Origin: Comamonas testosteroni | GTDB lineage: Bacteria > Pseudomonadota > Gammaproteobacteria > Burkholderiales > Burkholderiaceae_C | DNA: 64,000 bases | Reading direction: 5' to 3' | Assembly (NCBI RefSeq): GCF_030505195.1 | Contig: NZ_CP129672.1 | Span: 5,056,501-5,120,500, forward strand | Shown here: positions 44,649 through 57,519 of the stretch, in pieces | How the letters are laid out: each line of letters begins with the position of its first letter | How positions within the stretch are numbered: the first letter of the stretch is position 1 | Program-made: the position numbers and the translations under genes | The notes under the pieces: model-generated | Told to the model about the DNA's origin: nothing | What the model saw: the letters and a program-made list of their open reading frames with translations, nothing else | The model's database searches: none

Positions 44649-44903
44649 TGCTTGCGGGCTTTTGTCTGCTTGGAGGGCGCTTCCAAGCTTTTGAATTGGT
44701 GATCCCGTTGCGCTTGCCCTATCTGCATTTGAAAGTGTGCTGCTAGTGATGGCATCGTCTGGATTGAACTAGCTGTCTTGCTTTCAATAGCCGTCGGCAG
44801 TGTGCTGCGCTGACTGCGTCGGCTGTTACGGTGCTGCAGTTATTGGCACACGGTGTCGATGGGACATGGGCTGTTCACGGGGAAATGGGGGCGTAGCGGC
44901 AGA

Positions 44904-45098
44904 TCAGGGCTTTTCGCGCAGGCACTGGACGGTGTGGGCGTCCAGCCATTCGGCGTGCATGCCCGGGCAGGCGAATTCGTCGCGCACGGATTTGGTGAGT
45001 GTGGTGGGTTCGTCTGCTTGGGCGTTGGGGGTGGCAAGCCACAGTACGCCCATGAAGATGGCGGCGACGAGGATCAGGGATTCGATGATCTTTTCCAT
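44904..45098 (-). CDS. 64-aa exported protein, third gene of a LexA-boxed small operon
   Basis: The protein has a clear N-terminal signal sequence (IIESLILVAAIFMGVLWLAT, probable cleavage after NAQA). The mature peptide of about 36 residues contains two cysteines (FACPGMHAEW, TVQCLREKP), which could form a disulfide. GGAGA lies 8 bases before ATG 45098. It is 68 bases downstream of the 59-aa membrane gene on the same strand. Its tail VQCLREK resembles VQRLREK at the end of the 24-aa peptide. No family recognised. Confidence 0.7.
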   Translation of the reverse strand: MEKIIESLILVAAIFMGVLWLATPNAQADEPTTLTKSVRDEFACPGMHAEWLDAHTVQCLREKP

Positions 45099-45166
45099 GA
45101 TATTTCTCCGGTCTGGCGCTTGTCAGGAAAACGCCTGTAGCTATCAAAATCGATGAGATTGACCGT

Positions 45167-45346
45167 TCACAGCGGCCATGCTTGCGGGGTGGTGGCAATG
45201 ACGACGGCCACGCCGATGAGGCAAAAAATCCCCAGCAGGGTGAGGCCCCATTGCGCGGCGGTCAGTAGCCTTGTTCCAAGGCCGGGGCGATCAAGAGCAG
45301 GACTGCGAGGAGCAGCGCGAGCGCGAAGGTGGGGGTGTGTGGCCAT
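45167..45346 (-). CDS. 59-aa single-span membrane protein, second gene of the small operon
   Basis: The start ATG 45346 follows the stop of the 24-aa ORF by one base (TGAAATG), so translation is coupled. A basic N-terminus rich in Arg, Pro and His (HPHLRARAAPRSPALDRPGL) precedes one hydrophobic segment (WGLTLLGIFCLIGVAVVIAT), with a five-residue tail. The layout, with a cationic head and a C-terminal membrane span, is that of small inner-membrane or toxin-like peptides. No family recognised; function unknown. Confidence 0.6.
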   Translation of the reverse strand: MATHPHLRARAAPRSPALDRPGLGTRLLTAAQWGLTLLGIFCLIGVAVVIATTPQAWPL

Positions 45347-45347
45347 T

Positions 45348-45422
45348 TCACAGGCCCCCCTTTTCGCGCAGGCGCTGCACGAGGTCTTCATCAACGGGTT
45401 GAGGAACGGTGTTGTGCAGCAT
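45348..45422 (-). CDS. 24-aa peptide, first gene of the small operon
   Basis: ATG 45422 has AGGAG seven bases upstream, one of the best ribosome binding sites in the region. It encodes MLHNTVPQPVDEDLVQRLRE plus KGGL. It is charged, not hydrophobic, and stops one base before the membrane-protein start. It could be a leader peptide that couples translation of the next gene or a functional small protein. A leader of roughly 175 bases separates it from the predicted promoter. Confidence 0.55.
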   Translation of the reverse strand: MLHNTVPQPVDEDLVQRLREKGGL

Positions 45423-45569
45423 GGAATCTCCTATGGGCGAGAGGCAGGCCCGCTGAATGGGCGGGGCGAATAAAAAAGGCCAGCACTCTTGCGAGCAGGC
45501 GAAACCAACGAAGGTATGGAGTGAATGCGCTTCGCGCTCTGGTGCAGCAAGCGGTTGCTTTGAATTTTA

Positions 45570-45634
45570 CTGTTATTTTCATCAGTGCTGTTCATTTGTA
45601 CAGTAGTTTAAATTTGCCCTGTACAGCGCGTCAA
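45570..45634 (-). promoter_or_regulatory. tandem LexA-type SOS boxes and promoter of the small operon
   Basis: On the + strand CTGTTATTTTCATCAG (45570-45585) and CTGTTCATTTGTACAG (45588-45603) are two 16-bp CTG(T)-N8-(A)CAG boxes, 2 bases apart. The second is a perfect CTGT-N8-ACAG. On the minus strand a TTGACG -35 (45634-45629) and TAAACT -10 (45610-45605) with an 18-base spacer lie just upstream. Transcription would therefore start inside the boxes. A further CTGTACAG octamer lies in the spacer. The layout matches the two boxes at 57485-57519 before lexA. Confidence 0.7.
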
Positions 45635-45683
45635 CAGACGTCGACCCCATGTGTTGCGTGGCCGCACTGAGTGCCTGCCGCCA

Positions 45684-45717
45684 AAGAAAAAGCCCACCGG
45701 CGTTGGCGGGTGGGCTT
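45684..45717 (-). terminator. minus-strand terminator
   Basis: AAGCCCACC (45690-45698) pairs with GGTGGGCTT (45709-45717), and the minus-strand 3' side runs into TTTTTCTTTGG. It would insulate the small operon from genes further right. Confidence 0.65.
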
Positions 45718-46121
45718 ATGTGTAAAGGCCGATGCCTTGCGGCGTGCCTGGGGAAGCGGAGGGAGGGTAGAGAACCTCAGGCTCGGCAGAAAGCGATGGG
45801 TAACGTCACCATCTGGCGTGACCGCTCAGACCGCAGTTCACAGCTTGTGCACTACGTACGGTATTGGTAAAGCGTATTTCAGGCCTCGATTTTGAGCAAT
45901 ACCTTGTACCTGGAACAATCACACCAGATGGCCCCGCTTGACCCTGCGGGGAGAGGTTGCGCTTAAGGCCTGCGTGGCCAGGAGGCTACATTTGAAAATC
46001 TCCGCGAAAAAAAAGCCGACCGCGAGGTGGGCTGAACTTCGAATGGTTGGCGGCCGGCGCTGACCGGCCTGCGGTTCTTCTTGAGGTTGGGCACTAGCGC
46101 ATGTGTGGCTGCGTGCCGGGG
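45718..46121. other. 404-bp region with no supportable gene
   Basis: Nothing coding is convincing on either strand, and no recognised RNA gene or long repeat is seen. Confidence 0.5.
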
Positions 46122-56782: not shown

Positions 56783-57454
56783 TTACATGAACATGCTGTT
56801 GCGGATAAGGCCTACGGCCAGGCCTTCGATGGCGAATGACTCTTCAGGATCGACGTGAATGATCTTGTAGTCGGGGTTCTCGGGCAGCAGCTCGATGCCC
56901 TGAGGCGTGCGCTTGAAGCGCTTGACGGTAACGTCATCACCGAGGCGGGCCACCACAATCTGGCCGTTGCGCGCTTCATGAGTAGCCTGTACCGCCAGCA
57001 GGTCGCCGTCCATGATGCCCGCGTCACGCATGGACATGCCACGCACTTTGAGCAGGTAATCGGGCTTGGCGGCAAACAGGCTGGGCTCGACCGAATAGCT
57101 CTGATCAATATGTTCCTGGGCCAGAATGGGCGAGCCGGCAGCGACGCGGCCGACCAGGGGAAGCACCAGCGGTGCCAGAGCCGCGAGCGGCAGCGCAAAG
57201 CTGGCACCGCGTGCCGCATTGATGGTGCGCACGGTATCGGCGCGCAGGCGAATGCCGCGCGATGTGCCGCTGACCAGATCGATGACGCCCTTGCGGGCCA
57301 GTGCCTGCAAATGCTCTTCTGCAGCATTGGCCGACTTGAAGCCAAAGGTACTGGCAATCTCGGCCCGGGTCGGGGGTGCACCCGTGCGAGCGATGGTGGA
57401 CTGGATGAGGTCCAGAATCTGCTGCTGGCGGGGAGTGAGCTTGGGGTGGTCCAT
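56783..57454 (-). CDS. lexA: LexA, SOS repressor
   Basis: LexA represses DNA-damage genes and self-cleaves when stimulated by RecA filaments. The 223-residue protein has a winged HTH ([38 protein letters not shown]) and an S24 protease domain. The cleavage site is A106-G107 (GRVAAGSPI), with Ser141 (RGMSMRDAG) and Lys178 (VTVKRFKR) as the dyad, spaced exactly as in E. coli LexA. I place the start at ATG 57454, six bases after AAGGA; an in-frame ATG at 57496 lies inside the operator. It is divergent from ansA. Confidence 0.96.
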
Positions 57455-57484
57455 GGGCATTCCTTGATCGATCAATGATGAATA

Positions 57485-57519
57485 CTGTGTGTTCATCCAG
57501 TACCTGTATTTTTAATCAG
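57485..57519. promoter_or_regulatory. tandem LexA (SOS) boxes between lexA and ansA
   Basis: CTGTGTGTTCATCCAG (57485-57500) and CTGTATTTTTAATCAG (57504-57519) are two 16-bp CTGT-N8-NCAG boxes separated by 3 bases, on the lexA promoter side. They imply autoregulation. They end 17 bases before the ansA start, so ansA may be affected too. Confidence 0.75.

Follow-up and report, generated by a model that had tools for sequence, protein, structure and literature searches.

Unrelated bacteria possess small membrane proteins that are induced by the SOS response, and genes of such small size are often overlooked in annotation. In Caulobacter, the 29 amino acid long SidA is an SOS-induced division inhibitor of the inner membrane that acts on FtsW (PMC4211646). 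TisB, which also consists of 29 amino acids, requires K12 and Q19 within its membrane span and a positively charged C-terminal residue, and the charge rules differ between such membrane toxins (PMC11449926). DinQ of E. coli is an SOS-linked single-span membrane peptide like TisB (PMC3567139). Finally, the small division inhibitor Kil of phage lambda blocks FtsZ assembly; its gene overlaps gam and belongs to the PL operon, which also contains the red recombination genes (PMC3961180).

The locus described here is located in the window, i.e. the whole 64,000-nucleotide stretch of Comamonas testosteroni DNA that was analysed, and all positions are those of the window unless they are marked as own genome. 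It covers 44904..45634 on the minus strand and comprises a promoter, tandem LexA boxes, a leader and four small open reading frames (ORFs). In Comamonas, four very small genes are thus placed behind a conserved DNA-damage (SOS) switch, and they apparently descend from a phage early region. Two tiny membrane peptides and one exported product, all predicted from the sequence, make the operon a promising candidate for a novel effector of the damage response. Overall, we lean towards reading it as a LexA-repressed operon of four genes that goes back to an early-operon cassette in Comamonas prophages, has become fixed in the host and serves as a damage effector. If this is true, such effectors can arise when a LexA promoter captures an early cassette from a phage. 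Among the open-licence papers listed on Comamonas LexA and SOS, on Comamonas prophages, RdgC and small proteins, on LexA of Betaproteobacteria and on LexA-linked domesticated prophage genes, no title or abstract opening mentions the operon. It represents a conserved and testable candidate, for which box-less relatives are available for comparison.

The 29 amino acid long peptide predicted from the sequence of this operon resembles SidA in its number of residues, its membrane nature and its LexA control rather than in any recognised sequence kinship, and the SidA account, in the part cited here, describes neither a four-ORF cassette nor a phage origin (PMC4211646). With Kil the cassette shares very small size, early position and the vicinity of prophage recombination genes; in contrast to Kil, which blocks FtsZ assembly, the Comamonas products are predicted to reside in the membrane or to be exported. 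The tisB gene has a long leader RNA, and size, LexA control and such a leader connect the Comamonas operon with TisB and DinQ. Different from both, it adds a coupled membrane peptide and an exported protein.

LexA boxes and the SOS promoter

The minus-strand promoter (45605..45634) consists of the -35 hexamer TTGACG (45634-45629), a spacer of 18 bases and the -10 hexamer TAAACT (45610-45605), and it is aligned among the orthologs. It is one of two promoter-like sites in 44840-46000, where 0.2 are expected; both are located on the operon strand, and a consensus scan, which is weak evidence, found no such site on the opposite strand of this interval. LexA box 1 (45588..45603, minus strand; CTGTACAAATGAACAG, or CTGTTCATTTGTACAG as read in the window) has no mismatch to CTGTN8ACAG and lies over the expected transcription start, while box 2 (45570..45585, minus strand; CTGATGAAAATAACAG, or CTGTTATTTTCATCAG as read in the window) has one mismatch. 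Box 1 begins one base past the -10 hexamer, and both boxes therefore cover the expected transcription start. Promoter and boxes had been proposed in an earlier note made from the sequence alone, and they are present as claimed. The locus accordingly has what defines members of LexA regulons, namely a CTGT-N8-ACAG operator that overlaps or adjoins the promoter.

When 100 genomes, including 53 from Comamonas, were searched at the DNA level, 20 of them gave matches. The SOS locus is found in 14 of these, including the own genome (L001-L014), and L015 in genome G052 represents a fifteenth locus; the other five matches are short. The tandem boxes are kept in 15 of 15 loci and are always spaced by 2 bp; one of these loci, L015, was itself recognised via its boxes and ORFs. 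The operator is thus found at the orthologous promoters, and promoter, start codons and ORFs are conserved between the related genomes as well. In the other 38 Comamonas genomes no such locus was found by this search, which scored few places per genome and does not prove absence. A PRC-barrel gene adjoins the operon in the window and is present within the approx. 19-kb surroundings of 10 of the 14 other loci, suggesting that the site of the operon was mostly inherited in place.

A single box with one mismatch carries little weight, as 20 are present in the window versus 24 expected. In contrast, tandem boxes with 18-bp phasing and at most one mismatch occur at only two places in the 6.08-Mb genome, i.e. 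at this locus (0 mismatches) and at 5553433 of the own genome (1 mismatch), and the reversed pattern of the box pair occurs at no place in the 6.08 Mb. A chance origin of the boxes is ruled out by their conservation and by this genome-wide rarity of the tandem pair. The lexA gene, which lies outside the operon (56783..57496, minus strand; Pfam LexA_DNA_bind and Peptidase_S24), likewise has a tandem pair of boxes (57485-57500 and 57504-57519), with one mismatch in each box. Upstream of the recA start in the own genome, two boxes with one mismatch each are separated by 1 bp; this pair alone is not beyond chance, because 58 of 200 shuffles of the 3.8-kb stretch give two or more boxes. Paired boxes at both core SOS genes that were checked count in favour of LexA control of the operon, which we consider very likely from the comparison of the sequences. 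SOS control, as the earlier note had suggested it, has therefore gained strong comparative support from the boxes, the promoter and the ORFs that are kept in relatives, a comparison that the note itself had named as a check.

Two side observations concern these sites. The second tandem LexA-like site of the own genome (L089; 5553433-5553466, one mismatch) is located beside a 131 amino acid ORF and an ORF that looks GGDEF-like by eye. In addition, the promoter spacer contains an 8-bp palindrome (CTGTACAG, 45619-45626), in which every base is conserved in 11 or more of the 14 orthologs considered, L015 not being counted.

Four short reading frames and their products

The first frame encodes 24 amino acids (MLHNTVPQPVDEDLVQRLREKGGL; 45348..45422, minus strand), is preceded by AGGAG at 45432-45428 and is present in 15 of 15 loci; ribosomes probably bind within its end to translate the next ORF. 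This is a frame for a hydrophobic peptide of 29 amino acids (VKWPHTPTFALALLLAVLLLIAPALEQGY; 45262..45351, minus strand) in stop-start overlap with the 24-aa ORF, its GTG start sitting inside the stop of the latter (..GGCCTGTGAAATGG..). A second single-span membrane peptide (..TAAQWGLTLLGIFCLIGVAVVIATTPQAWPL; 45167..45265, minus strand) starts either with CTG at 45265, where it would overlap the TGA stop of the 29-aa frame, or with ATG at 45346, which would yield 59 amino acids. The last frame (44904..45098, minus strand) encodes a 64 amino acid protein with a hydrophobic start and an AQA/DE site, both of which fit export, and with a CPGMHAEWLD..TVQC end that contains two cysteines (C44 and C59).

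Codon positions 1/2/3 show pairwise differences of 0.093/0.044/0.134 for the 24-aa ORF (15 sequences), 0.213/0.126/0.273 for the 29-aa ORF (14 sequences, without L008), 0.159/0.144/0.331 for the final 32 codons within the 59-aa frame (12 sequences, without L007, L008 and L015) and 0.095/0.086/0.317 for the 64-aa ORF (15 sequences). In all four frames position 3 is the most and position 2 the least variable, which is the order of coding sequences. In the first half of the 59-aa frame, its own position 3 is the most conserved because the substitution pattern follows the 29-aa frame. The 59-aa frame as one constrained protein is therefore rejected, as its first half is without constraint in that frame. 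The earlier note had counted three tiny genes, of which the 24-aa ORF with its AGGAG and the 64-aa ORF hold as described; its 59 amino acid membrane protein (45167-45346) persists as an open frame with approx. 32 coding-like codons at its end, and in its first half the pattern fits the 29-aa ORF that had been missed. The description as an SOS operon thus stands, but with four frames of coding pattern instead of three. A programmed frameshift joining the 29-aa and the second peptide was rejected too, since no conserved slippery site is visible by eye in the ortholog alignment.

The 29-aa ORF is intact in 14 of the 15 SOS loci; it is broken by a 13-nt deletion in L008, the genome of which is 85% complete. 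In L015, it ends with TAA instead of TGA and the second membrane peptide is lost. Thus, neither peptide is indispensable everywhere. At the overlap with the 29-aa stop, the second peptide starts with CTG, but with TTG in L011. Several box-less copies without a 29-aa ORF provide the second peptide with its own ATG approx. 13 codons upstream of that CTG, and so both starts are possible. Maximal hydropathy over 17 residues reaches 2.9 for the 29-aa peptide, 2.86 for the second peptide and 2.38 for the 64-aa product. The span of the 29-aa peptide is uncharged and its C-terminus reads LEQ(S/G)(Y/F) in 14 of 17 sequences, with LEQGY in the window. For the exported protein, AlphaFold2 yielded only a weak model (pLDDT 72, pTM 0.32).

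Pfam gave nothing above the cut-off for the four ORFs, with the 29-aa ORF touching Mlo at an E-value of 0.076; PADLOC, which covers known anti-phage defence proteins, gave 0 families, and PHROGs gave weak matches only. When 19 relatives of the exported protein were compared with Pfam and NCBIfam, only scattered weak matches were obtained. By contrast, 16 of these 19 match phrog_30427, a phage family of unknown function, at E-values of at most 0.1 (best 2.4e-9), and the 64-aa protein of the window, itself a weak match (E-value 0.082), is tied to this family through its relatives. The earlier statement that the genes belong to no known family is hence correct for Pfam and PADLOC with all four ORFs and for NCBIfam with the exported protein and its relatives only, but it is qualified by the link to phrog_30427. 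According to profile searches, 24 of 53 Comamonas genomes and 5 of 250 genomes sampled across the family, three genera in all, contain the exported protein; the own genome has it at 10 places, which include partial matches and two with a stop. A protein search yielded 120 relatives, and those with an organism name are from Comamonas; the record of Comamonas testosteroni ATCC 11996 contains the exported protein at 100% identity. Ten columns around CPGM.A.WLD...V.C are invariant in the 19 hand-chosen relatives; exceptions outside this set are L042, which lacks the first cysteine, and L045 and L122, in which neighbouring residues are changed. A lipobox-like cysteine is present in the forms of L043, L047, L017 and L020.

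Similar DNA encodes VQRLREK near the end of the 24-aa peptide and VQCLREK in the 64-aa protein, which may be due to chance or to an ancient duplication. The interval that separates the second membrane peptide from the 64-aa ORF, at approx. 45100-45166, contains the pattern GATAGCTA..GCG(C/T)TT..AAGCGC; short matches to it elsewhere in G034 and G047 indicate that this stretch may be a dispersed repeat.

Leader elements and box-less relatives

The leader RNA (45423..45598, minus strand) comprises approx. 176 nt when its start is deduced from the -10 hexamer, which agrees with the approx. 175 bases predicted in the earlier note; among the 15 genomes, 150 to 341 nt separate the first box from the start codon. 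It contains a hairpin (CCCGCCCATTCAGCGGG; 45449..45465, minus strand) that has lost its U tail and is likely the remnant of a terminator that precedes many box-less copies of the cassette. Upstream of box-less ORFs, 11 of 14 hand-picked copies have a hairpin GCCCGC..GCGGGC that is followed by 6 or more T within 8 bases, the exceptions being L023, L041 and L046; in L022 the scan took a second leader copy, at 628. The SOS copies keep the hairpin in 13 of 15 cases, but at least 5 T follow it only in L011.

As a side observation, L006, L008, L009, L011 and L013 contain approx. 160 nt of extra leader between the boxes and the 24-aa ORF. The hairpin within it (CATCAAGAAAGAGTGC..GCACTCTT(C/T)CTTGATG) is very stable in L008, L009, L011 and L013 (-44.9 to -46.5 kcal/mol) and is preceded by CCCGCAGGG..AAGCGGGG(C/T)CATC; similar flank letters precede the element R1 at the window locus.

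R1 is a palindromic element of Comamonas prophages (45808..45933, minus strand) that was brought to light by this analysis and that, like the rest of the window, has no Rfam match at gathering scores. It is 97-124 nt long and combines a nearly invariant terminal stem of approx. 19 bp (GGCCATCTGGTGTGA.../...TCACGCCAGATGGT) with inner hairpins. The covariance model was built from 21 copies that were oriented by hand, and loci outside the training set agree in orientation; the window copy, which belongs to the training set, scores 88.8 bits in the own genome. There, R1 occurs at 8 places (4 from training), 7 of which are upstream of an exported-protein copy on the same strand. The viral loci contain 42 plus-strand matches in 33 of 71 loci, all upstream and cassette-oriented, and 35 minus-strand matches, which are weaker mirror images. 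At the SOS loci, R1 is detected with E-values of at most 0.001 in 10 of 15 cases, 5 of these being training copies. The single orientation of R1 speaks for a cis-acting leader element, but R1 as a proven RNA was rejected, because its terminal stem is mostly invariant, double changes are seen in only 5 of 24 pairs, and the palindromic ends would fit a DNA element too. It is possible that R1 is either an antitermination RNA or a mobile DNA element. Between R1 and the SOS promoter, an intrinsic terminator is located (CCCGCCAACGCCGGTGGG and CTTTTTCTTT; 45683..45710, minus strand), and 12 of 15 loci show a terminator-like pattern just upstream of this promoter, with the stem of the window in 10 cases. 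The position of the SOS promoter downstream of R1 and the terminator fits a promoter that bypasses phage control.

Copies of the cassette without boxes occur at scattered places in Comamonas genomes and on viral contigs, many of them beside recombination genes for an exonuclease or RdgC. The same stop-start overlap couples the 29-aa ORF of L055 to the end of a phage exonuclease (phrog_255), and the copy in L056 is followed by RdgC (phrog_724). The neighbours of L057 look by eye like ordinary chromosomal genes, and not every box-less copy is therefore phage-borne in appearance; some are interrupted by stops or are incomplete through loss. When 37 of 40 further loci were scanned with our own scoring (L015-L054 without L019, L053 and L054; some with less than 900 nt upstream), 36 were without boxes and the sole exception was the SOS ortholog L015. 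A relative of the exported protein is encoded on 71 viral contigs. An RdgC-like ORF, assigned by similarity, follows or overlaps it in 22 of these 71 loci, 21 of them in the closer set L110-L141. Within 1200 nt upstream, tandem boxes occur only in L112, which has the SOS type, and single box-like sites in L110, L144, L145 and L169. No match was obtained for the operon DNA in plasmid records, nor in phage records for the exported protein, the 59-aa frame or two exported-protein relatives, and the phage evidence is hence provided by IMG/VR contigs, PHROGs and genome neighbours.

The protein tree was calculated for 42 distinct proteins (12 SOS, 13 box-less, 17 viral) after identical, short and broken ones, L003-L005 among them, had been dropped. 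Eleven of the 12 SOS rows form one supported clade (99/98), which counts for a single origin of the SOS type, but all SOS rows stand on one side of a branch in only 8% of 200 bootstrap trees; the alignment has few columns, and the bootstrap had not settled. The 64-aa protein of L013 (G016) falls outside the clade and may reflect gene conversion by a box-less copy. The presence of R1 and the terminator upstream of both SOS and box-less copies counts for a phage origin of the cassette, which we regard as probable. The best reading is an early-operon cassette of a prophage that became fixed in the host and was put under LexA.

Possible functions of the operon

Following DNA damage, LexA would leave the two operators that cover the transcription start, as the sequence suggests. 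The transcript would begin with the approx. 176-nt leader, in which the ancestral terminator now lacks its U tail, and translation would proceed from the 24-aa ORF via the stop-start overlap to the 29-aa membrane peptide and probably onward to the second membrane peptide. The 64-aa pre-protein encoded downstream may give rise to an exported, short periplasmic piece with two cysteines. By analogy to SidA, Kil and TisB, and given that SulA is not detected, the products might jointly hold growth or cell division from the inner membrane and the periplasm during DNA repair. We consider it reasonably likely that the operon acts on the envelope, while division or growth arrest by its products, deduced by analogy, is assigned slightly less than an even chance. 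In the own genome SulA (PF03846) gave 0 matches, with a positive E. coli control, and a SulA match is missing from 52 of 53 Comamonas genomes; G052 has a weak SulA-like match with an internal stop. The argument that the operon fills the vacancy left by SulA is weak, because the locus is present in 15 of 53 genomes, SulA is missing in 52 of 53, and G052 is among the 15.

In a bolder version, proposed only tentatively, the locus would be a captured host checkpoint. A prophage early cassette, held by a terminator and a structured leader element, would have gained a tandem-LexA promoter downstream of the terminator and become a stand-alone damage effector. In cells without a recognisable SulA, division would be paused by a single envelope complex, built from the two coupled membrane peptides together with the exported peptide and its two cysteines, and R1 of the prophage would be a cis-acting antitermination RNA for passage beyond the terminator.

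An envelope-acting brake on division or growth, suggested by analogy, is our favoured guess over membrane depolarisation and phage interference. As a toxin of the TisB/DinQ type, the 29-aa peptide would depolarise the inner membrane after damage and promote dormancy, with the long leader restraining its translation. The earlier note had drawn the comparison with TisB; the size, which equals that of TisB (PMC11449926), the single hydrophobic span, the LexA boxes and the long leader agree with it. The uncharged span and the LEQ(S/G)(Y/F) end, however, lack the K12, Q19 and positive C-terminus that TisB needs, which is no exclusion in view of the varying charge rules of such toxins (PMC11449926), and the likeness is one by analogy only. 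In addition, no antisense promoter was recognised in 44840-46000. In contrast to the Comamonas operon, TisB is also not known to have a co-transcribed exported partner, and we consider this type of toxin unlikely.

It is also quite unlikely that peptides and exported protein counter superinfecting phages or the induction of resident prophages, with LexA control providing the timing with prophage induction. The many relatives in Comamonas genomes and viral contigs and the exported forms with a lipobox-like cysteine would suit such a role, and the title of a 2025 study reports that TisB prevents prophage induction through ATP depletion, with antibiotic tolerance in Salmonella (PMC12626290). On the other hand, PADLOC recognises none of the four ORFs, and the RdgC-like ORF in 22 of 71 viral loci indicates a recombination region rather than a known exclusion gene. 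Compared with an envelope-acting brake, a decaying phage relic that kept a LexA-regulated promoter would be of no benefit to the host; the box-less copies broken by stops and the loss of one ORF each in L008 and L015 point in this direction. Such a relic is nonetheless very improbable, as the four ORFs are under codon-position constraint and promoter, boxes and start codons are conserved across 15 genomes.
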